Shown: positions 1 through 48,100 of the stretch, piece after piece
Position numbering within the stretch: position 1 is the stretch's first letter
Layout: each line of letters starts with the position of its first letter
Virus record (IMG/VR): IMGVR_UViG_3300047510_001118
Coordinates: 186,001 to 250,000 of that record
Source: a virus
DNA: 64,000 nucleotides
Strand: one strand, 5' to 3'
Position numbers and translations under genes: made by a program
The notes under the pieces: generated by a model
Database searches by the model: none
Told to the model about the DNA's origin: nothing
What the model saw: only the letters and a program-made list of their open reading frames with translations

Positions 1-3000
1 ACAAAGAACTGATAGGCCATGCCGTCTCCGTCCCAGCCAGCAAATTCACCTTGTACATTGACTGTATTTGGCATATTAACTACTGATCCCGGAATTCCCG
101 CAGGAATAGTACTTTGAATCTTATCTGGTCCACCTACTAATACTGTACCAGCAATCAACTGTCCTGTGAATGTATTTGATCCACCTTGACTTAATCTGCT
201 GGTTAAATAGGATTTAATAGCCTTTTGAGTTGGAATTAGTTCGTTGCTGTTAGCAATAAATGTTGAATCTGTACTAAATTGTCTAATAACAACAGATGCT
301 TGTCCAACGGCAATACCACCTAAACTCAGTGTTTCTAATCCTGATAATCCAAACTGGCTAGCACTTAAGGTAACAATACCTGTAGCCTGTTCAACACCGA
401 ACAAGTCGCCAACTTTAAAGTTACCGTCTTGGTCTGTACTTGTATAAAACACGCGACCAAAGTTTACCTCAACTGCTTGATCCTGAGGTGCTAGAACAGT
501 TTCTTCTGGAACATCTGGATAATTTGTTTGTTCAAAATTACCGTAACCAATATATAGATAGTCGTGTCCTGTTAATCGAGCCTGACTATATTTTGTTCTA
601 ATTAATACTGGAGTTTCGTGATCCGGAGTTTCAGAAGATCGAATTTCCGGACCTACGGTTATATTTGCCTGTATGTTAGGAGCAACGGTACCAAATACTG
701 CTGTTGCTCCTGTAATTTTATAAATTTGATCATTACCTTGTATAACTAAGTTATCCCCGGGTCCTGGTAATCTAGTTAAATTCTTAACAGTTAATGTAAG
801 GCCGGTTTGATATTTGTCAGCATAACCACCGCCTCGAATAGCCACTGCTGTTGATGTAGTATTATATCCCTGGCCTCGGTTTAAAAATGTTGGATTTCCT
901 AGTGTACCGTTACTAATTCTTGGAATTATAGAAGCATTTACAGTCACGTTTGGATCTCTAATAGTTATAGTTGGGGCCGATGCGTAATTAGAACCAGGTT
1001 CCCAAACAGCCACACCTGTGATTCTATTAGATGTAACAGTGACTCTTCCTTTTGTTTTTGCTCCGGCTTTGATTAGTGTAGCATTGTTCTGCCCCGAGAC
1101 TGTTACAAATGCTCCGTCTTTAGACGGTTCAACCCAACCGAATGTCACTGCTCCGTATGGATCGCTAGTAACTGTTCTACGTTTCCAGTTAAATCCGTCT
1201 TCGCTGGTCCAGGCAATATCTGAATTAGCATTTAATACTAAAAATACTCCTTGACCGTAACAGATTTTAGTTCCGGTAATTTCATAGGCACTCTGTTGCC
1301 ATGTTTGGCCATCAGTGCTAAACGCTGGTTTTCCTACAGTGCTAGAAATAGCAACAAACACACCGTTACCGTAGGCTACATCAGACCAATCTTCTGACGC
1401 AGGTAATGTTGTTATTGACCAAGATGTTCCGTTAGTGCTTAATGCAGCCGACGTTCCGCCCGATGCTACCGCAACAAATTTACCTGCTCCATAGCATAAA
1501 CCAGTCCACGATGCCGAAGTCGTTAACCCTGTCCCCGTGACCCATGTATTACCAAAGTCTGTCGAATAGGCTGCTGTTGCGTTCACTGCTGGGATAGGAT
1601 TCATTGGATCATCGTTATTAGCAGGTATATAAGTTGCTATGGCAACAAATTTACTGTTTCCATAAACTACTTTATTCCAACCGGATTTAGTTGGTAGTGT
1701 CGTTCTTTTCCAGCCGTCGCCGTTTGATTTTGAGACTAATGCTGTAGACTGTGTAGCAGTTGCGCCACCGCTGTAGGCAATTATTACCCAATAACTGTTT
1801 CCGTAGGCAATTCCTGACCATTGATCTCCAACTGGTAATGTAATCGGTGTCCATGTTTCACCGTCAACTGATCGTCCGATCGTCTGTTGACCGTCTGGCA
1901 CTGCCATAAAGAACCCGTTACCATATTCGATATCTATCCACTCGCTGCCTGTGGCCAGTGCGTTTGTCTGAGAATCTTCTTGAGTAAATCCCGGTGCTAA
2001 GAATGTAATTCTTGGTTCAATAAAATAGATACAAGAATTATCTAATGTTGATTCTATTGGTGTTCCAGGATTGATATGATCCCATCCTGCAGCGGCCACA
2101 TTCATCGAACCTGTATTAGAAATCAGTGTCAGTGGAAGACCTCCCTGTGTAGTGCTTACACTAAATTGTGTGTCGCTGTCGATAGTTTTAATAAAATATT
2201 CCTGGTCACTGGTCACTCCACCAAATAAATTAGTAGAAAACGTTGCTGTCATCGAACCAAATCCAAATGATACAGAAGATCTAGCATTAGTTGAAGTACC
2301 TACCATTGTTCCTGAAGCAGTAGATAACGAAACTAATCCGTCTGAAGTTTTAGCATACATCAAACCGGTTGCTGTTGCTAGGTTTACAGATGAACCCCCA
2401 GGAACACCGCTGATCGTAAACGATACACCGTCGTTAACCGCAAGTATGTAATAGATATTTCCTGTTACTATACCACCAAACGTATTTCCAATAAATTTAA
2501 TTGGAGCATTGGCTACAAAACCTGCTGTAGATGTCACAGTAATTAAGTTTGTTACGGCCTGGGTAGCAGTAGCATCTACTTCAATTAGTGTTGGTGTTAT
2601 TGTAAATTCAGTGCCGCCGGCAATATTAGTAATATAATATTTTTGTCCTACACTTATTCCTCCGAACACAGATCCAGAAAATACAATCGGATTTAGAGGC
2701 ACTAGTGATACAGTTGAGTCGCAGGTTATGCGACCGTTAGCACTGTTTGTTGCTGTGGCTGATATTGTAACTAGATTAGTAGAAACTGTAAATTGGGTTG
2801 AACTAATCACATCGTTGACGTAGTACGTATCTCCGATGGTTATTCCTCCTAGTGCTAGACCAGTAAACTGTATTGGCATGTTAGGTAACATGTTTGTAGT
2901 TAAGCCAATTAGGTAACTGGTATAACCCGGAAATACCATGTACATATCTTGTTCGTCGTCGCCTTCGGCATTACTTAGATTCCATATTGTTCCAAACTGT

Positions 3001-6000
3001 TCTGTACTGATTGTGAATCGTGTTCCGTCTAAGATTTCCCTTATATAATAGGTAAAACCTGTAGTAACACCGCCGTAAGGTGTGCCGATAAATCTTATTG
3101 GCATATTAACAGTTAGCAATGCTGTACTAGAAACTACAATCCAGTTATCCTGCCCGCCAAATGTTTCAATAATCTGTAGTTGATTATTAGATGTATCTGT
3201 AATATTAGTTGAATAATATGTAGGTATAAATCTTATCTGTTGGTCGACGTATAGCGTACTAGTATTTCCGCTAGATAATGTAAACAATCCGCTAGAATTT
3301 TCTGTAGTACCAACATTTAACAAATCAAACGAATCTTTTACTACTGCGGCTGTTTTATTAAATGCGTTAAAATCAGCAATATATCCGTACTGTCCGGCAC
3401 CTGTGCCGCTTTGTATAAACAATCTCATACCAACGTAATTATTTGCTTCTCCTATGTCGGACTGAGCAATAGTAAAGGTTACTTCGTCTCCTGTTTGTCC
3501 GTTATTTGAGCTAACTAGATATCCTCTACCGCCCGTGCCCGTTCCGGTATCTACAATTCGTCCTTCAAATACTGCGCCGCCACGTAGTTCGTCACCGATA
3601 GCCACAGCATCTATGCCTGCTCCTGTGATTACATAGTCAGCATTAGTAGTGATATTGTTTGTTGTTGTATTAGCATAGAATGTTAACCCTGTACCAATTT
3701 GTATTTGAGCGCCATAGATTCTTGTAGTACCTGAGAATCCTAACTTTCCTCTTGGATAAATTCTAAATTGTAGATTATTATTAAAGGCATTAGTATCGTA
3801 GATTCTCATCCACAATCTATACCAGCCGTTAGGCAACTCAACTGCTCCGTATTCAACCGGGGTTAAGCCGCCACCTTCGCTGTAAGTCGTAATTATTTCT
3901 GTTTCAAAATTATAACTTACACCGCTAGATACTGTTGATGTTCCGCTAAAAATACCATATAAATCAATAAGTTGTGCGGTACCCCGTTTTACGTGTAGAC
4001 TTAGAGTATATTTTAAATTGCTGTTTGTTGGTACTGTTCCTGTAGCAGTAACCGTTGCGATAGAACTTCCTGACAGTGTTACAACTGTTATAATACAGTC
4101 GTTATCGCCATCTACACCGCCTAGTTGACTACCTAATATTCTTAATTGATTTCCTACAACATATCCGCCGCCACCAGTGTTGACTGTAACTGTATACTCT
4201 GTGGCTCCTACTACTACATCAAATAAAGAACCAATGCCAGAACCAGTGATGTTAAGAGCGTCAAGGCTAGTATAATTAGCACCTGGAGGCGCTATTGATA
4301 TATTTTGATATAGATATGATGTATCAGTATTAGATGTTAGTCCTGCTACTGTCCAAGCATTAGTTTCACCTGTTGGAGAAACTAGATTTTTTTGTAATGT
4401 AAGATTTCCATCCGAAATCCAAATACCATTTAAAAATTCGTTACTGTATTTTAGTAAATTCGTTGTTTGTTCAAAATAATTAGAACCAGCATTAGCGTAC
4501 TGCATGGACAATATTTCTGCGTTAACACCAAATGCGCTTTGAACTATAGCCTGTACTTGACTAGAACGATTATCTACTAGAGCAGTTACTGGATCTTCTT
4601 CTGGGTCAAAGCCTTCAGCAATAACACCGAAGGTACCATATGAGCTGTTACCATTAGTAGCACGGATACGTCCACCGTCTTCAGCAAAATAGCCAGCATA
4701 AGCATAGTATGAGAATACAGAAACTGCCTCAGTTAAAGAGCCTGTGCCAGTACACCAGCAACCGATACCATCGCTGATAACCTGTGTGAAGTCGTTGGTT
4801 GTGATAGATTTATTGCCACCGTTGTGTAAAGTGCCGTCGACTTTATAACCCACACAACCGTTACCAAATGTAGTTACGTTTTGTATGTAAGGGGAACGCT
4901 TCATGATCCATACAGATGTGTCATTAGGACCAGTTCCTGGATCTAAACTTACATAAGCACCGCCAGTTGGTCTGCGTGTACCAAAACTATTTGGTGCTGT
5001 TAGTGTTCCTTCTAAACCTGCTAGAGTCATGTTACGTATGCCTGTGGCATTTCTTACATAGAACATGTCTTTAAGATTATTTCCAGCATAGACTCTCATG
5101 TAACCGGAACCGTTTGGTATTGGCAATATATCCCCGCCAGGTGTAAGAGATATAGAAACATCTTTAGTCAATGTGTTGATACTTTTAACATAATATGTTT
5201 GGCCTGTAGTTATTCCGCCAAAGTCGTCGTTGACGGTGGCTGCTACGAATTGTATCGGATCATTAACTTCTAAATTTTCAACAGATTGTAATTTAAATGC
5301 GCTAACAGATGTTAGGGACAATGTTGTATAACTTATAAAAGAATTTTTAGGACGGACCACTACTCCTCTTAGTTCGTCACCAATTAAGGCAGTGTTGTCT
5401 GGAAGTGAAATAGGCAAGTCTTCAAAATAAGTTCCGGTTTTTACAAAAATAGAAGTGGTAATTCCATAGTTAGGTAAAGGAACGTTCTTAGTATTAGCAT
5501 CTTGGATAGCGGATATTAAGATATCCATTAAACTGGTTATTTCAATATATGCTGATGGTTCTGCTTGATAAGCATTGTTAAAGACCTGTGGGTCTATATA
5601 TGTAGGAGTCGGAATGATGACCCAATCTGATTCCCAGTTTTCTGCTACTCCCGGTTCTCTGCTGATGTTGTCGTTGATTAAACTAGAATACCAAAACCCT
5701 TGATAGTAAATAACATCATCTTCGTTGTAGGTATCAGTACTAATCCAAGTTCTGTTAATCTGTTGATAGTTAGTAAGAACTTCGTCTTGTTCTAACGCAT
5801 ATTGAATAATTGTTTTTAATTGTGTCAGCGCGGCCACAATATATTCTTGTGCGTCATCTGTGGCTTCATTCCTAAATGATGTTGTACTACCTTCCGCAAA
5901 AAATGCTAGAGTTGTGTATACTGTTTTACTATTACTGCCTCTAGTAATATCATATAATAGGGCATCAATTACTAATTTAGCATCTCTTTTTGTAGAAAAT

Positions 6001-7784
6001 TCATCAAAGACTGAGGAAGATGTAAACGGTGCTTGATTATTTTCTTTTCTATTAAGCATCCATTCCCACATCTCTCTTACTAAAAATTCTTTATTTGCTC
6101 TTAGTAAAAATTCTGCTTGTAGATTAGTGTTACCTAATGCTGACTGCTCGCAGGCATATTTAATTGAGTTAAATGGTTTATCCCAGGTATGACCATAACC
6201 TTCTGTGTCTTGGCCTTCTGTAGTAACATAAAAAACACGAGGAACTAAGAACATTTCGCGCCATGCTGGTTGGATATCATCCCCAGTTTTAACAACACGA
6301 AGCATATAATCTTCAGTTTCACCTGTAGTTTGAGAATCTGGATCAATAATTGGCAGGGCTATACTTTCGCCGTTGAGCACTGTTACAATATCTCCGGCAG
6401 TGTTACCGGCATTAGCGGGATCATGGCGAACAAACCAAACCCAATATTCGTTGTCAGCATCTACGTCTGGACGAAATAAATTACTTGAAGAATGATTTCG
6501 AATACATTGATAGGTGGCATTTGCCCAAACTACTAATTCGCCTACAGAGTAACTGGTGTTGGGTATCCAGAAACTTCTCCAATTATTGCTTGGAACTAAA
6601 ATGCTCCAATTGGTATAATTAACCCCAACTATGAGAATGTCTTCTTCGTCGATCGGTTCTCTATTTGGTTCATCGCTGACAATGATTGTCGTAGCATTAA
6701 CTACCTTAGAAATTGTTTGGCCTTGTAAGAAACCATTTCCTACCAGTGTCATGCCTGGAACTAAACCACTAGTCGAATCTAATACTACTGTAGTTCCAGA
6801 GCTGCCTGTGGCTTCATATGTTTTATTAACTTCATAGAATACAGGATCCTCTCCTGTGCTGTCAACAAGAGCTACAAATAGAGTTCCGGCTCTGCGTACT
6901 AGATCTCCAACGTGATAATCAACGCCACCGTCCCAGTTATTTCTTACTCTGTAACCTTGAGTAATTAATTCCCACTCTGTAGCGTTCATTGACGGTATAA
7001 TACCGCTATTACCAACAATTTTATTTAGATATGAATATCCGCCGTATTTTACAATATCGCCTGGCTGATATGTTGCCGTTTCTGTCCAAGTATCAGTATA
7101 CTCGGCGCCTGGCATCCATAGTGACCAATTTGCGTCTTGGAACTCGCTGCCTGATGTGTGCCCCGCTGAGCATACATAAAGACCAGCACCAACTTTTGCT
7201 AAATCATTCTTTTTATATCTAGTAGCGGCTGTCCAGTTTGATTTGTATTCTAATCCTTCGTGTACAATTTCCCATTTGCTTTGATCTGTTTCAAGACCCT
7301 GTGCTGCCGAAACTGATGATAAATGATTTTGTATACAACGATAAACTATTCCGCCGTATTTTACAATATCTCCTACACCATAAACAGTGCCTGTACTCCA
7401 ATTAACATTCCAACTGTCGTAACTAGAATATGTATCCCATTTAGAAATGTCAATTTGGCTAGATCCGCTAGTATGTTGTTCAACGCAGAGATATGCGCGA
7501 CCGCCGTATTTTACAATATTTCCGAGACTGTAAAATGTGTTTGGTTGCCACTCGTCTCTCCACTGTCTTCCGTCAATAACTAGATCCCATCTTGGCGCAA
7601 GACCGCCTTCACCAGTAATAAAGTTTAAATCGTCATAGAAATTAGTAGCCGAAGTATGCGGAGTTAAACAAACGTAAGACTTGCCCTGATATTGAACAAT
7701 AGCATCTCTATTGTAGGTAACAGCGGCGGCCCATTGACCTCTCCACGTAAAACGCAGTCTACCAATTTTAAATTCTTGTGCCAT
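1..7784 (-). CDS. Giant tail-fibre/virion protein, 3' end outside window
   Basis: Open on the minus strand from an ATG at 7784 to the window edge, at least 2594 codons; the C-terminus is missing. A ribosome site (AAAGGAAA) precedes the ATG. Order of parts, approximate residues: seven W..Y..GD.V.Y.G..Y modules resembling small chitin-binding (CBM5/12-like) domains at 1-440 and an eighth at 673-720; a parallel beta-helix-like region at about 750-1080, including RNATGIRNMTLAG and RIRATNGNSSYG; repeats of GG(I/V)T.G..YY at about 1560-1890; an Asp-box-like propeller at about 1936-2200 (YGNG.FVA with S.DG.TW); and glycine-tyrosine beta modules after that. These parts point to a surface-exposed receptor or glycan-binding fibre. 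It is the last visible gene of the leftward fibre cassette. Family membership is inferred from motifs; enzymatic activity is not evident. Confidence 0.8.
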   Translation of the reverse strand, partial: MAQEFKIGRLRFTWRGQWAAAVTYNRDAIVQYQGKSYVCLTPHTSATNFYDDLNFITGEGGLAPRWDLVIDGRQWRDEWQPNTFYSLGNIVKYGGRAYLCVEQHTSGSSQIDISKWDTYSSYDSWNVNWSTGTVYGVGDIVKYGGIVYRCIQNHLSSVSAAQGLETDQSKWEIVHEGLEYKSNWTAATRYKKNDLAKVGAGLYVCSAGHTSGSEFQDANWSLWMPGAEYTDTWTETATYQPGDIVKYGGYSYLNKIVGNSGIIPSMNATEWELITQGYRVRNNWDGGVDYHVGDLVRRAGTLFVALVDSTGEDPVFYEVNKTYEATGSSGTTVVLDSTSGLVPGMTLVGNGFLQGQTISKVVNATTIIVSDEPNREPIDEEDILIVGVNYTNWSILVPSNNWRSFWIPNTSYSVGELVVWANATYQCIRNHSSSNLFRPDVDADNEYWVWFVRHDPANAGNTAGDIVTVLNGESIALPIIDPDSQTTGETEDYMLRVVKTGDDIQPAWREMFLVPRVFYVTTEGQDTEGYGHTWDKPFNSIKYACEQSALGNTNLQAEFLLRANKEFLVREMWEWMLNRKENNQAPFTSSSVFDEFSTKRDAKLVIDALLYDITRGSNSKTVYTTLAFFAEGSTTSFRNEATDDAQEYIVAALTQLKTIIQYALEQDEVLTNYQQINRTWISTDTYNEDDVIYYQGFWYSSLINDNISREPGVAENWESDWVIIPTPTYIDPQVFNNAYQAEPSAYIEITSLMDILISAIQDANTKNVPLPNYGITTSIFVKTGTYFEDLPISLPDNTALIGDELRGVVVRPKNSFISYTTLSLTSVSAFKLQSVENLEVNDPIQFVAATVNDDFGGITTGQTYYVKSINTLTKDVSISLTPGGDILPIPNGSGYMRVYAGNNLKDMFYVRNATGIRNMTLAGLEGTLTAPNSFGTRRPTGGAYVSLDPGTGPNDTSVWIMKRSPYIQNVTTFGNGCVGYKVDGTLHNGGNKSITTNDFTQVISDGIGCWCTGTGSLTEAVSVFSYYAYAGYFAEDGGRIRATNGNSSYGTFGVIAEGFDPEEDPVTALVDNRSSQVQAIVQSAFGVNAEILSMQYANAGSNYFEQTTNLLKYSNEFLNGIWISDGNLTLQKNLVSPTGETNAWTVAGLTSNTDTSYLYQNISIAPPGANYTSLDALNITGSGIGSLFDVVVGATEYTVTVNTGGGGYVVGNQLRILGSQLGGVDGDNDCIITVVTLSGSSIATVTATGTVPTNSNLKYTLSLHVKRGTAQLIDLYGIFSGTSTVSSGVSYNFETEIITTYSEGGGLTPVEYGAVELPNGWYRLWMRIYDTNAFNNNLQFRIYPRGKLGFSGTTRIYGAQIQIGTGLTFYANTTTNNITTNADYVITGAGIDAVAIGDELRGGAVFEGRIVDTGTGTGGRGYLVSSNNGQTGDEVTFTIAQSDIGEANNYVGMRLFIQSGTGAGQYGYIADFNAFNKTAAVVKDSFDLLNVGTTENSSGLFTLSSGNTSTLYVDQQIRFIPTYYSTNITDTSNNQLQIIETFGGQDNWIVVSSTALLTVNMPIRFIGTPYGGVTTGFTYYIREILDGTRFTISTEQFGTIWNLSNAEGDDEQDMYMVFPGYTSYLIGLTTNMLPNMPIQFTGLALGGITIGDTYYVNDVISSTQFTVSTNLVTISATATNSANGRITCDSTVSLVPLNPIVFSGSVFGGISVGQKYYITNIAGGTEFTITPTLIEVDATATQAVTNLITVTSTAGFVANAPIKFIGNTFGGIVTGNIYYILAVNDGVSFTISGVPGGSSVNLATATGLMYAKTSDGLVSLSTASGTMVGTSTNARSSVSFGFGSMTATFSTNLFGGVTSDQEYFIKTIDSDTQFSVSTTQGGLPLTLISNTGSMNVAAAGWDHINPGTPIESTLDNSCIYFIEPRITFLAPGFTQEDSQTNALATGSEWIDIEYGNGFFMAVPDGQQTIGRSVDGETWTPITLPVGDQWSGIAYGNSYWVIIAYSGGATATQSTALVSKSNGDGWKRTTLPTKSGWNKVVYGNSKFVAIATYIPANNDDPMNPIPAVNATAAYSTDFGNTWVTGTGLTTSASWTGLCYGAGKFVAVASGGTSAALSTNGTSWSITTLPASEDWSDVAYGNGVFVAISSTVGKPAFSTDGQTWQQSAYEITGTKICYGQGVFLVLNANSDIAWTSEDGFNWKRRTVTSDPYGAVTFGWVEPSKDGAFVTVSGQNNATLIKAGAKTKGRVTVTSNRITGVAVWEPGSNYASAPTITIRDPNVTVNASIIPRISNGTLGNPTFLNRGQGYNTTSTAVAIRGGGYADKYQTGLTLTVKNLTRLPGPGDNLVIQGNDQIYKITGATAVFGTVAPNIQANITVGPEIRSSETPDHETPVLIRTKYSQARLTGHDYLYIGYGNFEQTNYPDVPEETVLAPQDQAVEVNFGRVFYTSTDQDGNFKVGDLFGVEQATGIVTLSASQFGLSGLETLSLGGIAVGQASVVIRQFSTDSTFIANSNELIPTQKAIKSYLTSRLSQGGSNTFTGQLIAGTVLVGGPDKIQSTIPAGIPGSVVNMPNTVNVQGEFAGWDGDGMAYQFF
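1180..1990 (-). repeat. Asp-box/BNR-like propeller repeats in the giant fibre gene
   Basis: About six blades of 40-55 residues share W..(I/V).YGNG.FVA....... followed by (S/T).DG.(T/N)W, the Asp-box-like signature. Examples are YGNGFFMAV with SVDGETW, YGNSKFVAI with STDFGNTW and YGNGVFVAI with STDGQTW. Such repeats build beta-propellers in sialidases and many adhesins. No sialidase catalytic residues were identified, so binding or a structural role is the likelier reading. Confidence 0.65.
2130..3120 (-). repeat. GG(I/V)T.G..YY beta-repeat array in the giant fibre gene
   Basis: About five consecutive modules, spaced roughly 60 residues, read P(I/V).F.G...GG(I/V)T.G..YY(V/I)..I....FT(I/V). 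Examples are MPIRFIGTPYGGVTTG, MPIQFTGLALGGITIG and APIKFIGNTFGGIVTG. A further single copy lies near 5225. The pattern suggests small beta-sandwich or beta-hairpin units forming a fibre shaft. I do not recognise a named family. Confidence 0.6.
5650..7745 (-). repeat. Eight CBM5/12-like protein modules in the giant fibre gene
   Basis: Seven roughly 50-60 residue modules lie in tandem over about 6480-7745, and one more at about 5650-5770. Each has the pattern W-x5-Y-x2-GD(I/L)V-x-YGG-x-Y-C-x3-HTS or a close variant, for example GDIVKYGG followed by YRCIQNH. The modules differ at DNA level, so they are old protein duplications, not recent DNA repeats. Chitin/cellulose-binding CBM5/12 domains share this W..Y..G..V.Y.G..Y spacing; carbohydrate binding is inferred. 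Confidence 0.65.
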
Positions 7785-8535: not shown

Positions 8536-11500
8536 TTATCCTAAAATTAACGCATACGTAACCGCGATATCTTCAGCAGTTGCGCCATTAATGCCGCCGC
8601 CAGCACCTGCAGCAGAGTCCCAACTAAGACCATTAAAAATTTCTAATTGTTTAATCTGTGAATTATAGCGTGTCATACCAAGTACTGCATATGTTGGACG
8701 CTGTACACTGTCACCAGTCGGTACTACAAATCCATTTGAACCAGCAATTTTAAAATATCCAGATCCTGTCTGTGTAATTGTAGTTATGCTATCTGCGACC
8801 GTGTTGGTAATTATATTGTCTTTAATCGCAAAGTTTGCCAGTTTAATAGATCCTGTTCCTGTGGCATTAAATGCTAGATCAGTGTTATTAGACAACGGGC
8901 TAATAGTATTGCCATCAATAACAATATTATCAACTTCAACTCTACTTGTTTCTAATCTTGTGGCTGTTAAGTTGGCTGTTAGATTACTATTATTGTAAAA
9001 TCTAATTGTATCGTCGTTGGCGCCAGGCGTTAATTCTGCTGTGATGTAGGTATTTTCATCTAAGTCTGTAACTCTACTATCTAAACGAATCCAATCGGTA
9101 CCGTCGTAACCTTCGTATCGATTTAATGTTGTGTTAAATCGAATCATACCAGCCAGAGGTGTCAGCGGACGTTCCCCTGTAGTTCCTATAGGAATGATAA
9201 TACTTTGATCTGAATCAATAACTATGCTCTTGCCTGTTCCAGGTTGTAAAACAATATCGCTTGTTGAGTTTGATGCTATAACATTTGTGCTGAAATCAAA
9301 TTCTTCAATACGTATTACACCACTGCCGTTAGCAATAAGTTCTAAATCAGAATTGGTTAACGTGGTTTTAATTTGATTATCATTGATTAAAATGTCGCCG
9401 TTAAAAAATTCGTCGCTGGTAATTCTACCTGTGTTATTGAGCGTTGCTGTAGAAATAGTTCCGTCAACAGTTAAATTTTGATCAATAAGAACATTATTTG
9501 ATGGTATATAGACCTTACCAGTACCGTTGGCTATTAATCTTAAATTGCTGTTAGTAACTGTAGTGGTTATTTCATTGTCGTCAATCTTAATATCTTGGAA
9601 TTGGGCAACATCGCCTACAGTTAAATTTGTGTCGATTTCAACACTGCCTGTAACTGTAGTATTACCAATTTGATTTATGTTTCCAGTTATTCCAACTGTG
9701 CCTACTATAGTTGTATTAGATAATGTAGTAGTTCCCTGTACAGTTAATCCCTGATTAATCAGTACATCACTGCCTGATACAATAACTTTACCTGTACCAT
9801 TAGCATCTAAAATTAAATCAGCATCTTCTACATTTGTTACAATAGAATTATTATTAATTGTAATTTGATCAATAATACTTTGACCTAAATAAGCATTAGA
9901 CCATTTTAATAAACTAGTTCCTAACTTATAAGTTTCAGTGGCATCAGGTACTATATTGCTGATAATTCCGCCAACAAACTGAATAGTGTCAGTATCTTGA
10001 TCGCCTAAGATAATGTTTCCGCCAATGGTTACATTACCAACTACATCTAAATTTCCTGTGATGTTTACGTTGTTTTGTAAATTAATTTCGTCACTGGCGG
10101 CAACGATGTTTACATCGCCGCTAAGGCTTGATAAGGTATTGCCACTTAGTCTTAAATTACCAGTGTCAATTCTTGTACCGTCAATATAGGTAGTATTAGT
10201 GCCGTCACTGAATGTAACACCATTTTGAGAAACAATGTTAAAGTTTGCTGTGGTAAATTCTACAGTGCCAGCGGCTTGATTAACATAAAACAAGTCACCA
10301 ACACGGAAGTCACCTCTGTGATCAACTGAACTATAATAAATCTTTGCGCCGTTGAGTTCGACTACTTCGTTTTCTTGTATAACATAAGTTGGATCATTGT
10401 CAACACGATATCCAACGCCAATGTAGGCTAAGTTTTGTCCAATTAGATATGCTATGACGCCTATACCATCACCGTAGACTCCGTAGTTGCCGTAGATTGC
10501 CGCACTACCTATTGCTCGAATTTCTGTACCAAAGTCGCTGTAATCTAACAGAGTAATTGCCGTGGCCGCGCCGCCGGCGCTGGTTCTAATATCTTGTGGT
10601 AATAAAGTGTCATCAACAAATACTGTTGAATTGTTATCCCCATTAAATCTAGCCATTAAGACAGTGTAACTGTCGTTAACTACTGTTGATGTTGGAGGTG
10701 TAAATGTTGAGTTGTATCTTGATATACCTTTACTAATTCTTAAATCGTCAATATAACCGTGAAAGTTTAAATCACCTGTAAATCTTGATCCAATTGTTAA
10801 CGGGCTTTGAACGTATGTTGTTGTATCAGTCCAAGTAGAACCAATTTGATTACCATTTAAAAACATCTTAGTACTAGTACCACTTCTAGAAACTGCTATA
10901 TGATACCATGTACCTGCTGACATTCCGCTAACACCGCTAATTCGTGTAGTATTATTAACAGTATAAACTAATGATCCGCCGGCTGTTATTTGAATCCAAG
11001 GTGCTGATTGATTAGTTGTTGTTCTAAAATCAAGAAGACTAATACCAAATCCTGTAGTTGATCTGTAAAACCAACCTTCGACTGTAAAGTCTCCAGTGCC
11101 AAAATTAAAATCAGAATTACTTGCTATAGTTGCGTAGTCACCAACACCATCTAATGCCAAACTGGCTGTACCAAATTTCTTTTCTGCTGTTGATAGTTTA
11201 GCGTTTCCGTAGGCTGTAATAGTCTTTCCGCCTCTCTCAAACTGTGTTTCTAATCCGGTAATTTTTCCTGTTAGATAAATTTTGCCGTCAGCATCAATTT
11301 TATTAATTACACCAGAACCTAATAAAGTAGTTCCATCTGTATCGTAATAACTTAATGTATTACCTACAGCAAAAGTTCCAGTTTGTCCTGTTAGACGTAG
11401 TTCAGTTTTTCCTGCGCCGGCAAAACCTGTGCTACCACTAGTGGCATAAAAACTACGATTAGCAAAATATGTAAATGAGTTTAACCACTCAATGCGTGTA

Positions 11501-12753
11501 CCGTTGGTTGTAACTATACAATCAACGCCCGGAGTAATAAAGGTTACTGAATGGAATAAGCAACTGGCTTCTTTAGAGTTGGCGGCTACTACTGCGCCGT
11601 CTAAATATGCTCCGCGGCCAGCGTCCCCTGCGGCAAAGCCTCTTGGATCTAAACCTGTTGTTGTTGATCCTTGGGTAATAACTGTGATATTTCGTATGTA
11701 AGGACTGCGACTAGATGCTACAAAATTTGTAGCAAATTTAAAAGCATATCCGGTATTATTTGTGCTGTTGTAGAAAAAATTTGCTATTGTTACATCTTCT
11801 ATAGTAACTTCGCCGTTGAGCAATATAGCATCTAAATCATTAGTAGCCAAGGTTGGTTCAATCTTAACTGATCGAATTCCAGCACCTTTGAGCGTTACTC
11901 CAGTGGGTATTGTTAGAGGAAATATTTCTGAATATACACCTGGATAAACAAATACAGTGTCGCCAGCAGAGGCTTCACTTAGAGCATGAGCTATAGTTCT
12001 AAAAGGATCATTTTGATGATCACCCGAGTATGTATCGTTGCCGTTTTGTGCTACATACCAAATTTTGCCCTGTGTTAAATTTAAATTAATTCCGTCAACT
12101 ATAATGTCGCCTGTGACAATTACGTCACTGAACAAGTTGTTTGTATATAAATCTGCCCAACGTTTATCAGTGGTACCTAGTTTATATTCGTTGTCTAAAT
12201 CGGGGATTATATCGCTGGCTACGTCAGCATTAAAATCAATGCTGTCAGTGTCAGCATCTCCTAGTTGTATACTACCATCTGCTGTAATATTGCCTGTAGC
12301 GTGTATGTTTCCATTAACTGTTAAATCAGAAAATACTTCTACTGATCCAGAACCGTTAGGTCTTAGTTCTAGATCTGTGTTTGTTGAATTAGTACTGATT
12401 ATTTTACCAGCAATATCAATATCGCCAACTCGAAGTTTATTTTGATATACTACAGGTGTGCTTGATCCTGCTGGACTTAGAAATAATGTATCTTCAGGTG
12501 TTGAGATGGTTGTACCTGAGATTGAAATATCTGCGATGTTTGCTAGTGTGTCAACTACTAAGTTTGTAGTTCTAGTAACACCGTTAACGGTTAAAGTATG
12601 AGTGGGGTCGTTAGTCTTTATACCAACTCTGTGGTTGGCGGAGTTAGAGTCTACTACTTTTAGGTATATGAGGTCTGTCTCAAAGGCTAGGTCCACACCT
12701 TGGCGTAGAAGATTTGCCTTTAAGAGCGGACCGGAAATGCGACCAACGGTCAT
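8536..12753 (-). CDS. Long fibre-like virion protein with beta-helix and LamG-like insert
   Basis: A 1405-residue protein with a strong AAAAGGAGTG ribosome site. Its ends match the neighbouring 12902-16192 gene: N-terminal GRISG-LLK-NLLRQGVDLAFE-DLIYL and C-terminal Y-LILG. Residues about 225-445 look like a pectin-lyase-type beta-helix start (GKIWYVAQNGNDTYSGDHQN, then GDTVFVYPGVYSE). Residues about 447-740 hold an insert absent from the paralogue, including a LamG-like jelly roll. The second half carries repeated blocks of TTNSNLRLIANGTGKV type and two copies of the module P.G....RP.....G..R(Y/F)N......E...G..W. This suggests a trimeric side fibre with a glycan-binding head. It is preceded by a late promoter and a structured leader, so expression is probably late. 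The exact location in the virion is unknown. Confidence 0.75.
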   Translation of the reverse strand: MTVGRISGPLLKANLLRQGVDLAFETDLIYLKVVDSNSANHRVGIKTNDPTHTLTVNGVTRTTNLVVDTLANIADISISGTTISTPEDTLFLSPAGSSTPVVYQNKLRVGDIDIAGKIISTNSTNTDLELRPNGSGSVEVFSDLTVNGNIHATGNITADGSIQLGDADTDSIDFNADVASDIIPDLDNEYKLGTTDKRWADLYTNNLFSDVIVTGDIIVDGINLNLTQGKIWYVAQNGNDTYSGDHQNDPFRTIAHALSEASAGDTVFVYPGVYSEIFPLTIPTGVTLKGAGIRSVKIEPTLATNDLDAILLNGEVTIEDVTIANFFYNSTNNTGYAFKFATNFVASSRSPYIRNITVITQGSTTTGLDPRGFAAGDAGRGAYLDGAVVAANSKEASCLFHSVTFITPGVDCIVTTNGTRIEWLNSFTYFANRSFYATSGSTGFAGAGKTELRLTGQTGTFAVGNTLSYYDTDGTTLLGSGVINKIDADGKIYLTGKITGLETQFERGGKTITAYGNAKLSTAEKKFGTASLALDGVGDYATIASNSDFNFGTGDFTVEGWFYRSTTGFGISLLDFRTTTNQSAPWIQITAGGSLVYTVNNTTRISGVSGMSAGTWYHIAVSRSGTSTKMFLNGNQIGSTWTDTTTYVQSPLTIGSRFTGDLNFHGYIDDLRISKGISRYNSTFTPPTSTVVNDSYTVLMARFNGDNNSTVFVDDTLLPQDIRTSAGGAATAITLLDYSDFGTEIRAIGSAAIYGNYGVYGDGIGVIAYLIGQNLAYIGVGYRVDNDPTYVIQENEVVELNGAKIYYSSVDHRGDFRVGDLFYVNQAAGTVEFTTANFNIVSQNGVTFSDGTNTTYIDGTRIDTGNLRLSGNTLSSLSGDVNIVAASDEINLQNNVNITGNLDVVGNVTIGGNIILGDQDTDTIQFVGGIISNIVPDATETYKLGTSLLKWSNAYLGQSIIDQITINNNSIVTNVEDADLILDANGTGKVIVSGSDVLINQGLTVQGTTTLSNTTIVGTVGITGNINQIGNTTVTGSVEIDTNLTVGDVAQFQDIKIDDNEITTTVTNSNLRLIANGTGKVYIPSNNVLIDQNLTVDGTISTATLNNTGRITSDEFFNGDILINDNQIKTTLTNSDLELIANGSGVIRIEEFDFSTNVIASNSTSDIVLQPGTGKSIVIDSDQSIIIPIGTTGERPLTPLAGMIRFNTTLNRYEGYDGTDWIRLDSRVTDLDENTYITAELTPGANDDTIRFYNNSNLTANLTATRLETSRVEVDNIVIDGNTISPLSNNTDLAFNATGTGSIKLANFAIKDNIITNTVADSITTITQTGSGYFKIAGSNGFVVPTGDSVQRPTYAVLGMTRYNSQIKQLEIFNGLSWDSAAGAGGGINGATAEDIAVTYALILG
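10534..11415 (-). other. LamG-like domain insertion within a fibre gene
   Basis: Compared with the paralogue at 12902-16192, this gene has about 294 extra codons between the shared GFAG and FG.EIR.IGSA motifs. The insert contains KFGTASLALDGVGDYATI, GDFTVEGWFYR, WYHIAVSRSG.S and LTIGSRFTGDLNFHGYIDDL, the usual strand order of LamG/concanavalin-type jelly rolls (Laminin_G_3-like). Such domains commonly bind sugars; binding here is inferred. Confidence 0.75.
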
Positions 12754-12901: not shown

Positions 12902-15900
12902 TTAACCTAGTATTAAGTTCCATAGATAGGAAAGATCTTCCATCTGTTGACCAGTAACATTACCGCCCACGCCGCCCGAATTAATCCAAGAAGTTCCGTC
13001 CCAGATTTCAATGTACTCGCGCTCTATGTTATAGCGTGTTTCACCAATTTCTGGAGTAGGGGTGCGGTCAGCATCGTTACCATAGGGTATAATAAAACCG
13101 TCAGTACCGGTGAGTCTTACGTATCCGTTTCCGGTGGCGGATAGTGTTATAGCCGTTGATAGGTCATTTTGAATTTCATTAGAATCAAAAGTAATAGACT
13201 CAAATCTATTAAGTCCTGTACCTGTGGGAGTTAAAAATAGATCGGCATTATTGGCTGAGATTAAAGAGTTATCAAACTCTAGATTGTCTACATAAAGGCC
13301 ATTAATTCTCATACCTGCTGTGGTAATTTCCATAGCGGCCACAGTGCCGGCAACAAAATTTAATACATTTGTTGTCTTACTGGCTTTGACTGAAGTTTCT
13401 CTATCTGCTGAAAATACGCCGCCGAGCCCTCTACTAGTAATTCCGTCAAATCCTTCAAAAGTGCTGTCAGCAGTATTAAATCTTAAATCGCCCTGTGCTT
13501 TATTTGCCAGAGGTCTATTTAAATTATTTCCAACTGGTATTTTTAAACTGCCAGTAGAGTCTAAATCTGTGTTTTTAACAGTGCCCGGACGTAGTATAAT
13601 ATTATCTGTATTTTTAATAGTATTACTAACAATTTCTTGAGTTTCAACAAATACACTGCCTAAATTATCAGCAATAAAAATTAAATTAGAATTAAGTTTT
13701 GTTGTTGCTATTGAATTATCGTTAATTAAAATATCAGTAGAATAAAATTCATCCGATGTTGTTCTATTAGCAACAGTAATACCGTTTGTAGTTGTTGTAC
13801 TTAGAGCAGTTAAATTGTTATCTATGTCAAGATCGCTGTTTGAAATAACAATAGAGCCAGTACCGTTGGCTTTAATAACTAAATCTGTGTTTAAATTTGT
13901 TACCGTAATATTATTAGTTTGTATTCTTATCTGTGGCAGATAAACTATTTGATCAACAGTTAGATTATTTGTAACTGCTAAAAATCCGCTACTGTCAATA
14001 CTTCCGGTTACGTTTCTAGTTCCAGTATGATTGACTAGCCCAGTAATATTCGTAGTTCTAATATTGCTTTGTCCAACTACATCAACATTTTGATTAACTT
14101 GTACATTGCTAGTTGGTATAACTACTGTGCCCGTGCCATCGGAAGTTAAAATTAAATCAGTGTTTAACGAATTAATAGTTATTACATTGTCATAAAGTCT
14201 TACACTGTCTATATTTGCTTCAACTGTGTGTAGTTCTTGCCATACTTTTGTACTTGATCCTAACGCATAAGAATCATTGACATCTGGAACAAAGTCTTGT
14301 GATATATCTGAGAAAAATTTAATAGTATCAGTGGATTGATTGCCTAATGTTAGACCACCATCGATACTAAAATCTCCGGTAATAGATACGTTTTTTTCAG
14401 CGTTAACATTTTGAGTTAGATTAATTGTTCCGCTGGCAGCGTTAACATTTAAGTTTCCTGAGAGTGATTCAAATGTATTTCCTTGTAATCTTAGATTACC
14501 AGTACGAATTAAACTGAAATCAATATAAGTTATTTCGTCACCGATGCCCACAGTCAACGAACTAATATTATCTAGATTGATTCCCGAAGTATCAAAACTA
14601 ACTGTACCGTCTTCCAAGTTAGCAAAAAACGCATCACCTATACGCCATGTACCTTCATGGTCTTGGCTTTGATAATAAATTTTTCCTGAATTTAATTCCT
14701 GTGTTTCATTGGCTTGTATAACCAATGTTTTGTCATTGCTAGTATCTTTGCCTGTACCAATATAGGCAAAGTTATGCTGTATTAGATACATCAACGTACT
14801 AGCGCCATCTGCTACAGCACCGTATGTTCCGTAGATATTGGCTGATCCAATGCTACGAATTTCTGCTCCGAATTTAACTGCGAGGCCCGCAAATCCCAAC
14901 AAACCGTCTGTGGCATATAAGCCTCGACTAGCGTAATAAGTGAAAGAATTTAACCATTCAACTCGTACACCGTTAGTCATTGTAATCGCATCAACACCCG
15001 GTGTAATAAATGTCACTGCGTGGAAAAGCATACTGGCTTCGTTAGATGTTGACAGTGCTTGACTACCGTCTACTAACGCACCTCGACCGGCGTCACCGCT
15101 GTCAAATCCTCTTGGATCTATTTCTGAGATCACTGAGCCTTTTGTAATTACAGTTATATTTTTAACATATGGACTACGACTAGTAACACTAAATCCTGAA
15201 TCAAAACTAAAAGCATAACCTGGACTATAAAAGTCTGCTACAGTAAGATCACTGATTGTAGTCTGTCCGTTAAGTACAAAGGCGTTATTAGTATTAGTTG
15301 CCGGTGTTGGTATTACTTTAACTGATCTAATACCGAATCCATTAACTGATATTCCTTCATTTACTATTAAAGGAAATTGTTCAGTGTATGTTCCTGGATA
15401 GATAAAAACCGTATCACCAGATGTTGCTTGACTTAAAGCGTGTTTAATTGTAGCAAATGCTCCGTTTTGGTGCTCACCGTCGTTGGTGTCTAAGCCGTTG
15501 GTTGCTACATACCAAATTTTACCCTGTCTAAGTGCTAGATCAATACCGGCATCAGTTTGTAATTGTTCTGTAGTTAACAACTGCCCATTAATTAAAACAG
15601 AATGTGTTTCACTCCATCTTCGATCTGCGCGACCAAGATTGTATGTATAGTGTTGATCCGGCACAATGTCGCTGGCAATGTCTGCGTTGAATGTCACTGA
15701 ATCTGAGTCATTGTTTCCAAATATAATAGTTCCATCTAAGGTAATATCGCCTGTGGAATGTATACTTCCTGATACATTTAGATCATTAAAGACTTTAACT
15801 TCGCCAGTACCATTGGGTCTAATTTCTATGTCTGTATTAGCAGTGTAAGAAGAAATATCATTATTTTTAAGTTCTAAGTCAGCAGTTTTATTAGATGGTA

Positions 15901-16192
15901 CTTGAACTTGTTGGCCGGCAGATATCGTTAGACTACCAAATACAGTAGTGATGTTATTGTCAATTATTCTTAGATTACCAGAAAAATACGAAGTGTCTAC
16001 TAGCAATTCAGGACTGTTAGTTGTTCCTGTAACTGTGAGATCGTGGGTTGGACTAGATGTTCTAATACCTACTTTATTAGATTCTACATCTAGATAAATT
16101 AAATCGTTTTCAAATGCTAGATCAACCCCTTGTCTTAAAAGGTTGTTTTTAAGCATTATACCTGAAATTCTACCAAGGGTGTCTGCTGGCAT
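12902..16192 (-). CDS. Long fibre-like virion protein, paralogue without LamG insert
   Basis: The start is the ATG at 16192, giving 1096 residues; a TTG at 16207 is in frame but lies inside the likely ribosome site (TTGGAG), so it was rejected. N-terminus MPADTLGRISGIMLKNNLLR and C-terminus ending LSYLWNLILG match the 8536-12753 protein. A beta-helix-like region (GKIWYVATNGLDTNDGEHQN, GDTVFIYPGTYTEQ) follows, then long repeats with the pattern (L/I)(I/L)..(G/N)GTG.(V/I)....(V/I)..N. Two P.G....RP/T...G..R(Y/F)N modules sit near the C-terminus (coding DNA about 13470-13545 and 13025-13095). It probably forms an elongated fibre. Tandem duplication with the next gene is clear; receptor specificity is unknown. 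Confidence 0.75.
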   Translation of the reverse strand: MPADTLGRISGIMLKNNLLRQGVDLAFENDLIYLDVESNKVGIRTSSPTHDLTVTGTTNSPELLVDTSYFSGNLRIIDNNITTVFGSLTISAGQQVQVPSNKTADLELKNNDISSYTANTDIEIRPNGTGEVKVFNDLNVSGSIHSTGDITLDGTIIFGNNDSDSVTFNADIASDIVPDQHYTYNLGRADRRWSETHSVLINGQLLTTEQLQTDAGIDLALRQGKIWYVATNGLDTNDGEHQNGAFATIKHALSQATSGDTVFIYPGTYTEQFPLIVNEGISVNGFGIRSVKVIPTPATNTNNAFVLNGQTTISDLTVADFYSPGYAFSFDSGFSVTSRSPYVKNITVITKGSVISEIDPRGFDSGDAGRGALVDGSQALSTSNEASMLFHAVTFITPGVDAITMTNGVRVEWLNSFTYYASRGLYATDGLLGFAGLAVKFGAEIRSIGSANIYGTYGAVADGASTLMYLIQHNFAYIGTGKDTSNDKTLVIQANETQELNSGKIYYQSQDHEGTWRIGDAFFANLEDGTVSFDTSGINLDNISSLTVGIGDEITYIDFSLIRTGNLRLQGNTFESLSGNLNVNAASGTINLTQNVNAEKNVSITGDFSIDGGLTLGNQSTDTIKFFSDISQDFVPDVNDSYALGSSTKVWQELHTVEANIDSVRLYDNVITINSLNTDLILTSDGTGTVVIPTSNVQVNQNVDVVGQSNIRTTNITGLVNHTGTRNVTGSIDSSGFLAVTNNLTVDQIVYLPQIRIQTNNITVTNLNTDLVIKANGTGSIVISNSDLDIDNNLTALSTTTTNGITVANRTTSDEFYSTDILINDNSIATTKLNSNLIFIADNLGSVFVETQEIVSNTIKNTDNIILRPGTVKNTDLDSTGSLKIPVGNNLNRPLANKAQGDLRFNTADSTFEGFDGITSRGLGGVFSADRETSVKASKTTNVLNFVAGTVAAMEITTAGMRINGLYVDNLEFDNSLISANNADLFLTPTGTGLNRFESITFDSNEIQNDLSTAITLSATGNGYVRLTGTDGFIIPYGNDADRTPTPEIGETRYNIEREYIEIWDGTSWINSGGVGGNVTGQQMEDLSYLWNLILG

Positions 16193-16210
16193 GTAATTAA
16201 TCTCCAATAA

Positions 16211-42176: not shown

Positions 42177-45100
42177 ATGGCATTTACTAAAGATCAAAAA
42201 GAACCAAAACTACCAATAGGTCAAGACAGCACTCGAAGTGCTTCAGATTTTTTACCTAGATATTTTAGAACAAATACTAATCGTAAAATATTAAACGGAA
42301 CACTTGATCAGTTAATATCTGTTGGTAATGTAGATAAAATTAATGCTTACATCGGTAGAAAATCTACCAAGGCGTATACGCCTACTGACAATTACTTAGA
42401 AGAAATATCTTTAGATCGTCAGTCATACCAACTTGAGCCTGCGATCTTAGTCAAAGACAAATTAGATAATGTAACATTTTTTAAAGATTACAACGATTAT
42501 ATTAATCAGTTACTATATTTTAATACTTTTGATATTGACCACGAGCTAACTAATAGCCAAGAATTTTACAGTTGGAATCCGCACATTGATTGGGACAAAT
42601 TTGTAAACTATCGTGAATATTATTGGCTACCAATGGGACCGCAGTCAATCGCAGTTAAAGGTCAGTCTAAAGACATTGTTAGCACATACTCGATTTCTTT
42701 AGTAGAAGATTCTGATAATTTTGCTTATATTTTTACTCCTGACGGACTGACACGTAATCCTACACTAAAACTTTACAGAGGTCAAACATATAATTTTGAC
42801 ATTGACTGTGAAGGACAGCCTTTAACTTTTTCTACTAATCGTTCTCAAGATATTACATTTGTCTATAAGGACGGTGTGACTAAAGATTCTGAATATGTTG
42901 AAAAAGGAACAATTACATTTAAAGTTCCTGACAATGCGCCTGATATTATCTATTATGTTAGTAAAAATAATATCAACACATCAGGATTTTTTAAAATATA
43001 TGACATTGAAGAAAATACAGCCATCGATGTTGAAAAAGAAATATTAGGTAAAAAAACTTACTTAATCGACGGAATAACTCCGCTGTCAAGTGGAATGAAA
43101 ATTAATTTTATTGGTAATGTTACCCCTGAAAAATACAGTACTGGATTTTGGTATGTAGAAGGCGTGGGAAATGCTATTAGATTAGTTGATTCAGTTACTC
43201 TTGAAAATCCTGGAGGATATACATTCAGTGAAGACATTGACTTTGATAGTGAAAAATTTGATACACAAGGATTTGACAGCAACAATAACTATCCTTCTAA
43301 CAAAGATTATATCACTATTAATAGATCAAGCCGAGATAGAAACCCGTGGTCAAGATATAATAGATGGTTCCACAAATCTGTTATCGAAACATCGGCAGCA
43401 TATAATAATCAACCTATAGATCTTGACCAAGAAGCAAGGGCTAAAAGACCTATTGTTGAATTTGATAGAGATATCCAACTTTGGAATTTTGGAGTAGAAG
43501 CAAAAAATTCAATAGACTTAATTGATTTATATACTAAAGATGTTTTTAGCACGGTAGAAGGATCATTTGGATTTAAAGTTGATGGTGTTTCGTTAGTCGA
43601 AGGCATGCGTGTATTGTTTGCCGCAGACACTGATAAAACAGTCAATGGTAGAATTTTTAAAGTAACATTTGTTACGCACCTAGGACAAAAAAGAATTTCT
43701 CTAATTGATGTTGATGATACAAATCCTATCGAAGGAGAAAGTGTATTAGTACTACAGGGAGATTTTTTAAAAGGAAAAACATTCCATTATTCGTCTGGTG
43801 TATGGAATTTAAGTCAAGAAAAGACTGGTCTTAATCAGCCACCGTTATTTGATACTGTTGATGTATCTGGAAATAGTTTTGGAGATCGATCTGTTTATAT
43901 CGGTTCTACTTTCCAAGGAACTAAAATTTTTAGTTATGCTGTAGGAGACGTACTAGATCCAGTGTTAGGCTTTAACATTGATTATCGCAATATTGGCAAC
44001 ATCGGAGATATTGTTTTTGATTTTAATTTACAAAAAGATCAGTTTACCTATCAAGGTGAAGTTGAATTAATTACAAAAAAATTAGATAGAGGTTATCTAA
44101 AGAAAAATATTTCTATTTCAACTTTTAATTTAATAAACGGTTGGGTTAAGGCAGAATTTAATTCTAAGCAACCAGTTATTCGTCAATACGACACAACAAC
44201 TCAAAACAATTTATTTGAAATTGATGTTTATAAAAATAGTGCCACACTAGACGATCTTGAAGTGTCAGTGTTTGTTGATGATATCAAACAGCCTTCTACT
44301 TCCTATGAAGTATATAGACAAAATAGCATAGCCTACATTCAATTTAACAGCGACTTAGACACGAACAGATCTGTAGTATTAGAAACACGGTCAGCGGCAA
44401 AGAAATTAAAAGATGTTGGTTATTATAAGTTTCCAAGCAATCTTGAAAGTAATCCTCAAAATTTAAGTCTTGACGATTTAACACTGGGAGAAATCACAAA
44501 TCATTTAAAAACTATTGTTGATAATTCTCCAAGTTTTTCAGGACAAATGCCAGGAATTAGTAATCTACGAGATATCGGAGATCAAACTGGATACGGTAGT
44601 CAAATAATTCAACACTCTGCTCCGTTGGCACCAATTATCTATTCTTTTACTAACAAAAATGTTAATATAATTAAGTCTCTAAGATATGCCAATGATGAAT
44701 ACTCAAAGTTTAAAAGAAACTTTATTAGAACTGCTACAACATTAGGATATGATGGGGAAACTCGAGATCATGTTGATTTAATTTTTAAAGAATTAAGAAA
44801 AAATTCTACTACATCATCACCATTCTATCTCAGCGACATGGTACCGTTTGGTGTAAACTTTATCTACGAACAAGAAATCATCGACGATAGTTTTACTGAT
44901 TATCCGTTGACATTTGATTTTAATTTAGAAACATTAAGTCGTAAATCAGTTTTAGTTTACTTAAACGACACATTATTATTATATGGTAGAGATTACATCT
45001 TTACAAATGACAGTTTTGTTAGATTGTTAGCCCCAATCACTACAGGTGACAATTTAAAGGTAGCACAATATGAAAACAGCCTTGGCTGCTGTGTTCCACC

Positions 45101-48100
45101 GACGCCTACTAAGTTAGGATTATATCCAAAATTTGAACCTAAAATTTTTATTGATAACACATATCAAACACCAACGTTGGTAATTCAAGGGCACGATGGC
45201 AGTATCACAGTAGCCTTTAATGATTATAGAGATAATCTAATATTAGAATTAGAATATAGAATTTATAATAATATTAAGAAAGAATATGATCCTTCATTGT
45301 TTGACATTAATAATTTCATTGAAGGCCACCATAGAAAAACTAACCTTTCAACTAATGAATTAAATCTTGCTTTAAGACAAGAATTTTTAACTTGGTTAGG
45401 TTTAACTAATAAAGATTATACAAAGCACGATTTCTTTGATAGAAATAATCCTTATACATTTAATTACAAGTCTTATTCAAGCTCTGACGGAACGCCATTA
45501 ATTGGATTCTGGAGAGGAATATACAAATATTTCTATGACACTGACAGACCGCACACACACCCATGGGAGATGTTAGGTTTTTCAAATAAGCCAACTTGGT
45601 GGGACAGTGTATATGGAATTGCGCCTTATACTAAAGATAATTTAATTTTATGGAATGATCTAAGAGATGGAATAATTAGAGAGCCTGGCATACTACCAAA
45701 ACAAAATAAAAAATACGTTAGGGAAGATTTATTAACTTATATTCCTGTTGATGCTGAAGGCAATCTTTTAAATCCTTTAGAAATTGGATTAGTAAGAAAT
45801 TATGTAGCAACGTCTGCTGAAAAAGAATTTACGTTCGGCGACTGGGCGCCTGTTGAAACTGCTTGGAGACGCGGCAGTCAATATCCGTTTGCTTTAATTA
45901 CAGCCTTAACACTGTTAAGACCTGCTCAAATGTTTGCTGTTTGCTTTGATAGAGAGCGTCAATATAGAGACGGAACAGGGCAAATTGTATATAAAATGCC
46001 AGCAGGAAATCTAAGATTTAATACAACTAATTTAGTCTTTCCTAATACAGTAAAAGAATCTGAAAATAGATTTACCAGTGGACTAATCAACTATATGTGC
46101 GATTATGCTATAAGTAAATCTTTTGGATTTTTAGAAGAGTTTAAAACTGAGTTATCAAGTTTACAAATAAAAATTTCTAGCAAGTTGGCAGGATTTACTA
46201 GCAAAGAAAAATTTAAACTTATTCTCGACAGCCGTAGTCCTTTAAATCAAGGAAATGTTTTTATACCGCAAGAGAATTATAATATAATTCTTAATACTAG
46301 CAGTCCTATTTTATCAATATCTTATAGTGGTGTAATTATTGAAAAAACATCTAGCGGTTTTGTAATCAATGGATATAATAAATCAAATCCTGACTTTAGA
46401 TATTTTAAACCATTAGATACAGTTTCAGACCCAACAGTTAATGTGGGCGGTATTTCAGAAACATATCTCGAGTGGACTTCGGGTAAAACATACACTAAAG
46501 GCCAAGTTGTAAGAGTTGATCAAAACTTTTATAGAGTAACGGCTTCTCATGATGGCGGCCCTTCTTTTGAATTAAAATATTTTGCTAAACTACCAGCACT
46601 ACCAATCGTGGGCGGCAGAGAAGTTATTATTAGAAGAAACTTTACCACAGAAGTTTCAACAATACACTACGGGGCCGAATTAAAAACAACACAAGAAGTG
46701 GTTGATTTTGTATTAGGTTACGGTAAATGGTTAGAAAGCCAAGGATTTATTTTTGACAGTTTTAATCCTGTAATTAAAACAGTTACAGACTGGCAAACTA
46801 GTGCCAAAGAGTTTGCCTTCTGGACAACTCAAAATTGGAGTACTGGATCTGTAATTACCCTAAGCCCAGCAGCCGAAGAAGTAACATTTGGAAAATTATA
46901 TGCGGTTGCTGACAGCATCTACGATCCGTTCTATGAATATACAGTGTTCAAACAAGACGGTCAAACATTAGATCCAAATTTTACAAATACTGTAAGAGAG
47001 AATAATTCTTTTAGTATCCGTCCTAAAGATACTGGAGATGGTGTTTATCACATTACATTAAATTTAATTCAAAAAGAACATGTGCTAATATTAGATGATG
47101 TTACGGTGTTTAATGATGTAATATACGATCAAACACAGGGATATAGACAGGATAGGATTAAAGTTGTAGGCTATAAAATATCAGACTGGAACGGCGATTT
47201 TGTTATTCCTGGATTTGTGTATGACAGAGCAGTATTAACTGAATGGAAACCTTGGAGAGATTATGCTCTAGGAGAAACTGTAAAATACAAAGAATTTTAT
47301 TACAGTGCTAGAAAAAATATTCCAGGAACTGAGCTATTCAACGACGACGAGTGGTACAGATTAAACGGTAAACCAGAAAGTAAATTAATTCCTAACTGGG
47401 ACTATCGTGCTACACAGTTTGAAGATTTTTATGATCTAGATACAGATAGTTTCGATGTTGATCAACAAAAGTTTGCTCAACATTTAATTGGTTATCAAAA
47501 GAGACAATATCTTGAAAACATTATCAATGATGATGTAAGCCAGTATAAGTTTTATCAGGGCATGATTCAAGAAAAAGGAACAAAGAATAGCCTTTCAAAA
47601 TTATTTGACGTATTAAGTTCTACAGATGCCGACAGCCTTGAATTTTATGAAGAGTGGGCAATTAGATTAGGTCAGTACGGAGCCAGCGAAGGATTTGAAG
47701 AAGTTGAGTATCTATTAGACGAGTCTCAATTTTTAATAAATCCACAGCCTATTGAATTAGTTGATTCAGTACCTCCGGGCGTGAATGATTTTGTCTACAG
47801 AATTACTAGAGATAAAGTTTATCTAAAACCAGACACATACGATCACAAACCTATTCCTACAGTTAGGTCTAAGAAAGAATATATTCCTACTGCTGGCTAT
47901 GTACATTTAGAAGATATAAAATATATTATAACTTCTAAAGATCAAATTGGTGACTATAATATCAATGATCTAAAAGAGGGCGATTATTTTTGGTTAGGAT
48001 TTGATAAAACATCTTGGAATGTTTACAGATTTACTCTAGTTGTTTCTTCAGTAAGATCCTTCCAAGAATTATCTAATCTAAGAATTAATTTTAATTCAGC

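Follow-up and report, generated by a model that had tools for sequence, protein, structure and literature searches.

The window analysed here, a stretch of 64,000 nucleotides within a 278-kb IMG/VR record, comes from a large T4-like phage, whose major capsid protein and portal protein match PHROGs 138 and 213. For the capsid protein, the closest matches come from jumbo phages infecting Sinorhizobium, Vibrio, Erwinia and Serratia (66-71%). Two tandem paralogues, genes A and B, lie on the minus strand of the window together with a third, distant one (Table 1). The tandem pair B-A is also present in relatives from IMG/VR, designated below by L numbers; by annotation only, no pair of this kind was found near the capsid gene of one Vibrio and one Sinorhizobium phage, the nearest isolates by capsid protein. 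Elsewhere in the window, a single open frame of 4648 aa (42177-56123) lies downstream of baseplate-like genes.

Table 1. Positions in the window of the paralogous genes and of the parts of gene A
Feature	Position	Strand	Description
Gene A (P0001)	8536..12753	minus	1405-aa beta-helix fibre-like protein, bears the insert
Gene B	12902..16207	minus	1101-aa tandem paralogue of A, without the insert
Gene B start codons	ATG at 16192, TTG at 16207	minus	
Beta-helix stretch preceding the insert	11419..12096	minus	P0001 220-445; pLDDT mostly 89-97
Whole insert	10534..11415	minus	P0001 447-740, 294 residues; from the protein alignment of A and B
Small beta module, first half	11242..11418	minus	P0001 446-504; kept in all A orthologues
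Nested LamG domain	10600..11241	minus	P0001 505-718, 214 aa; missing in A orthologues with the small module only
LamG interior, exchanged	10663..11133	minus	P0001 ~541-697; edges vary by up to ~20 residues among pairs
Small beta module, second half	10534..10599	minus	P0001 719-740, PQDIRTSAGG...DYSD
Beta-helix stretch following the insert	10174..10533	minus	P0001 741-860
Empty site in gene B	14873..14884	minus	LAVK between GFAG and FGAEIRSIGSA
Third, distant beta-helix paralogue	3..7784	minus	runs off the window; no insert at the LamG site

The insert that distinguishes gene A from gene B

Global alignment showed the A and B proteins to be collinear throughout, with 56% identity before (residues 2-447) and 41% after (740-1405) a sole large gap at A residues 447-740. 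This gap is flanked by GFAG and FG.EIR.IGSA, and gene B holds only four residues at that point. An earlier note on this DNA had claimed that the two proteins align end to end and that about 294 residues with a LamG-like jelly roll belong to the first alone; the gap boundaries are as it described, and the extent of the insert was confirmed to the base. Pfam places a Laminin_G_3 domain (PF13385) inside the insert, at residues 535-675 of the gene A protein (E 1.6e-17; 64.5 bits against a gathering cut-off of 27.6), and gave no match in the gene B protein. Since PF13385 was found once across the whole 278-kb record, there are no equivalent residues elsewhere in gene B, the finding that by the terms of the note would have spoken against it. 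The note had also proposed comparing the base and codon use of the insert with its flanks; relative to the genes of the window, GC (z=0.26), GC3 (z=-0.78) and codon score (z=+1.6) are ordinary for this phage and give no sign of recent foreign acquisition. The repeats flanking the insertion were just weak direct ones, as chance would give.

Predicted structure and family assignment

An AF2 model of residues 205-880 (mean pLDDT 85.5) predicts a shaft formed by a right-handed beta-helix, which is broken by the small module and LamG and then resumes. Modelled alone, LamG reached a pLDDT of 91.9, and its jelly-roll fold is backed by this predicted structure, with PDB matches including 5hon and 1sac and, in the search with the whole model, also 1qu0. 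Its fold neighbours comprise, among others, jelly rolls of carbohydrate-binding and pentraxin type, such as domain 4 of AbnA. Ligand binding, whether of glycan or of Ca2+, is not universal in the PF13385 family. The best PDB fold match for the shaft was tailspike TSP2 of phage CBA120 (5w6p, 6w4q), at low TM-scores of 0.16-0.20; TSP2 shares the beta-helix shaft with gene A, but there is no sign of its enzymatic activity in gene A and none of a LamG insertion in TSP2.

Cyanophage homologues were the best viral fold matches (BFVD ranks 1-5). The cyanophage proteins recorded as 'baseplate wedge initiator' or 'baseplate wedge subunit' (P-HM1, P-HM2, MED4-213, ACG-2014f) have the same shaft, the same insertion site and the same small module with LamG; they differ from gene A in being only ~38-43% identical and alignable over the shaft region only, and no tandem B partner was identified for them in this analysis. 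The gene A protein itself matches PHROGs 13163, 32294, 1469 and 19601, 'baseplate wedge subunit', and the match to phrog_13163 (E 1.8e-190, residues 220-918) spans both shaft and insert. In Pfam its only match was Laminin_G_3; 'baseplate wedge initiator' and like names are annotation only. Because PHROGs and the cyanophage records name the homologues in this way, the position of the protein in the virion is uncertain. According to one paper, T4 Gp7 is absent from pelagi- and cyanomyophages, with VrlC in its place, and concanavalin A domains occur in putative receptor-binding proteins of these phages (PMC7029224).

Two nested insertions

The length of the gap at the insertion site, measured in every relative protein, fell into discrete states: mostly 4-8 residues in B genes, and about 80-85 or 293-297 residues in A genes, a few being longer. 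A small beta module, GKTRIRLSG...VDGK...GFDTTPQSI...DFGAEIR, makes up the 80-85 form; the long form adds LamG to this module, between GKxxG[FL][DE]T and PQ[SD]I, with matching seams; in the gene of the window the module accounts for ~81 aa. The insert is thus made of two nested insertions, the small module in a turn of the beta-helix and LamG inside the small module. Among representative A genes the small module was kept in all 27, with LamG in addition in 14 and absent from 13, and both elements were absent from 49 B genes.

Nesting goes one step further in some A genes, where a second LamG lies within the first and the family HMM finds, in order, an N-terminal part, a complete domain and the remainder. 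The break in the outer LamG falls near model position 48 for L026 and L091 but near 135 for L024, which indicates that nesting took place at two different loops; L068, L025 and L029 were assigned to the same set by equal gap length.

Age of the insert

In a shaft tree built without the insert, A (27 rows, support 100/99), B (49 rows, 96/92) and the cyanophage proteins (100/96) formed separate clades, and by this tree A and B are old lineages. LamG is spread across A and occurs in the cyanophages, while genes with the small module only belong mainly to one A subgroup, in which L024 and L125 are exceptions that bear LamG; in cyanophage DSL-LC03 the small module stands alone. As the cyanophage 'baseplate wedge' proteins share both site and nesting, the insert is old and predates this phage lineage. 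A single insertion of the domain into A, after duplication of A and B in this lineage, would agree with the bare site in B and in distant homologues, the third paralogue of the window included, which showed no insert at the LamG site. We consider it improbable, since none of the 27 representative A genes lacks the small module, the nested insert also occurs, at the same position, in cyanophage proteins that do not belong to the A/B pair, and the composition of the insert is not foreign.

It is an evenly balanced proposition that the insert was instead lost, that is, that A, B and the cyanophage proteins descend from a protein that had it, that the B lineage deleted it, and that some A genes and DSL-LC03 later lost LamG only. 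A and B share their full-length architecture, with the cyanophage proteins aligning over the shaft region alone, LamG occurs in deep A branches as well as in cyanophages, and the best tree rooted with an outgroup of the third paralogue and tail fibres unites A and B, though with a support of 34/60. Against this, a grouping of A with the cyanophage proteins was not rejected (p 0.28), nor was one of B with them (p 0.26). B may therefore either have lost the insert or have split off before its gain, and the rooting supports neither firmly. Loss bears on direction alone and can be combined with the exchange described below. The earlier note had seen a clean insertion of one domain, gained or lost in one of two paralogues, to be settled by aligning relatives: LamG does sit in a loop, present in A and absent from B, and the alignment brought out an old insert, but one made of two nested insertions, the inner of which comes and goes among A orthologues, in genes that have long been separate and whose root could not be placed.

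Exchange of the LamG interior

Phages have repeatedly exchanged a central stretch of ~125-155 residues in LamG (~541-697), with the edges of the domain and its surroundings kept. Listed as shaft, module, N edge, interior, C edge and shaft, the identities (%) were 93-88-77-36-84-95 for L008/L009, 88-86-86-34-80-91 for L014/L023, 93-98-73-41-76-96 for L020/L021 and 73-75-86-33-64-82 for the gene of the window and L007. DNA profiles drop at the interior just as the protein does. Two-rate segmentation found one divergent block in each of six pairs, with edges at 540-562 and 686-697, 31-43% identity inside and 74-94% outside; log-likelihood ratios were 38-85, compared with 6.6-8.4 in shuffled data.

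That the interior merely evolves fast under selection, with no exchange, would fit the finding that most sister pairs diverge most there. This explanation is very doubtful, because interiors can be closer across clades: there the window gene shares 62% identity with L014 and only 33% with its own sister L007, and L008 shares 67% with L069 and 36% with L009; L007 and L017 likewise share 60%. AU tests also contradict it, as no single tree suits all parts of the gene. On interior data, rejection extends to the core clades {window, L007, L008, L009} (p 3e-5), {L014, L023} (p 2.5e-4) and {L020, L021, L065} (p 0.005); on core plus edges, each of the three interior clades tested is rejected (p at most 4.7e-6). 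These p-values are optimistic because the clades were chosen after viewing the matrices; the log-likelihood differences were large (up to 162). The interior alone failed to reject {L008, L009} (p 0.155) and {L098, L103} (p 0.30).

A diversity-generating retroelement or assembly chimeras could in principle create such variation, and we regard either as extremely improbable. We found no point in favour; the variation consists of whole-block replacement, reverse transcriptase PF00078 had 0 matches in the 278-kb record (which may be incomplete), and some types have one allele represented in contigs of separate samples. One such case is the L009-type allele, whose recurrence together with its flanks in many contigs from different samples counts against chimerism for that type.

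Interior alleles shared across clades are 55-67% identical, reaching 96% for L017/L020 only, so donor-recipient events at high identity are seldom seen. By local BLAST, the interior of the window gene is 50-54% identical to parts of unrelated fibre proteins (L149/L150, L153, L168, L172). Donors among these proteins were not supported by a wider tree, which included L149 but not L150, L153, L168 and L172 and placed the 23 gene-A interiors on one side of a branch (70/63). Exchange thus looks to be mainly among A genes.

Proposed function of the exchanged segment

The pattern observed is what recombination anchored in the conserved edges of LamG would leave. As a whole, we explain gene A as a fibre-like virion protein with a swapped LamG binding cassette, a reading to which we give a probability of about 0.7. 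The beta-helix shaft would display the LamG jelly roll from one turn, seated in the small beta module; the conserved edges would serve as anchors for homologous recombination during co-infection, and the interior would provide the face that binds the ligand, whether a cell-surface glycan or another receptor. The small module, the edges and the shaft stay with the lineage while the interior moves; exchange would be retained since an altered interior would change adsorption, and gene B would be a partner without the LamG binding module. From its fold and the pattern of exchange, the LamG interior is probably a cassette for receptor binding that homologous recombination swaps at conserved edges, in the part of the fibre most likely to touch the host. 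The change of binding at a fibre surface loop first suggested for this insert can be kept to that extent: LamG lies in a loop of a fibre-like protein and is probably relevant to binding.

LamG could instead be a structural or inter-fibre contact of the baseplate that binds no receptor, as the PHROG names would have it, and contact surfaces in virions can be mosaic too. We judge this unlikely, given that orthologues may have LamG or lack it while the shaft remains whole, and that its interior is exchanged while shaft and edges are conserved. We retain the binding cassette, and lean slightly towards its being a dedicated hypervariable one, in which the LamG interior, lying in two nested insertions, would be swapped as alleles among large T4-like phages via its own conserved edges, at a site that can grow by insertion of LamG into LamG.

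Exchange of modules is known in phage receptor-binding proteins, where fragments are common to otherwise unrelated proteins (Smug et al. 2023, PMC10684548); here, by comparison, it is the interior of one domain that is swapped between orthologues, at similar edges and inside nested insertions. The gp38 adhesins of the T4 superfamily alternate conserved motifs with hypervariable host-recognition segments (Trojet et al. 2011, as cited in PMC10844046); gp38 is a separate adhesin with glycine-rich motifs, unlike the LamG of gene A in its beta-helix loop. In the open-access literature we found no report that phage fibres swap a LamG interior at fixed edges or contain LamG nested in LamG. Some 150 residues with defined edges mark where a group of uncultured large phages probably changes host specificity, with exchange below the level of the whole domain and repeated nesting of shaft, small module, LamG and LamG. 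The evolution of receptor-binding surfaces in phages thereby becomes open to direct test, also in the isolated cyanophages P-HM1, P-HM2 and MED4-213, which have the same site.

Other variation at the beta-helix

A few B genes (L029, L091, L014, L023) bear unrelated inserts at or near the LamG site, those at the site measuring 97 residues in L029 (2870-6049) and 65 residues in L091 (6980-11011), which suggests that this turn is a general hot spot for insertion. Distant homologues have a large insert in the beta-helix loop that follows the LamG site: that of the third paralogue is very large (>1000 residues), and the cyanophage tail-fibre-like proteins L133 and L134 likewise bear inserts there. 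Both genes of the tandem pair of L030 (5974-7479 and 7610-9127) are without the entire beta-helix, and their N- and C-terminal parts join at a repeat that the gene of the window has on both sides of the helix (~144-207 and ~892-955).
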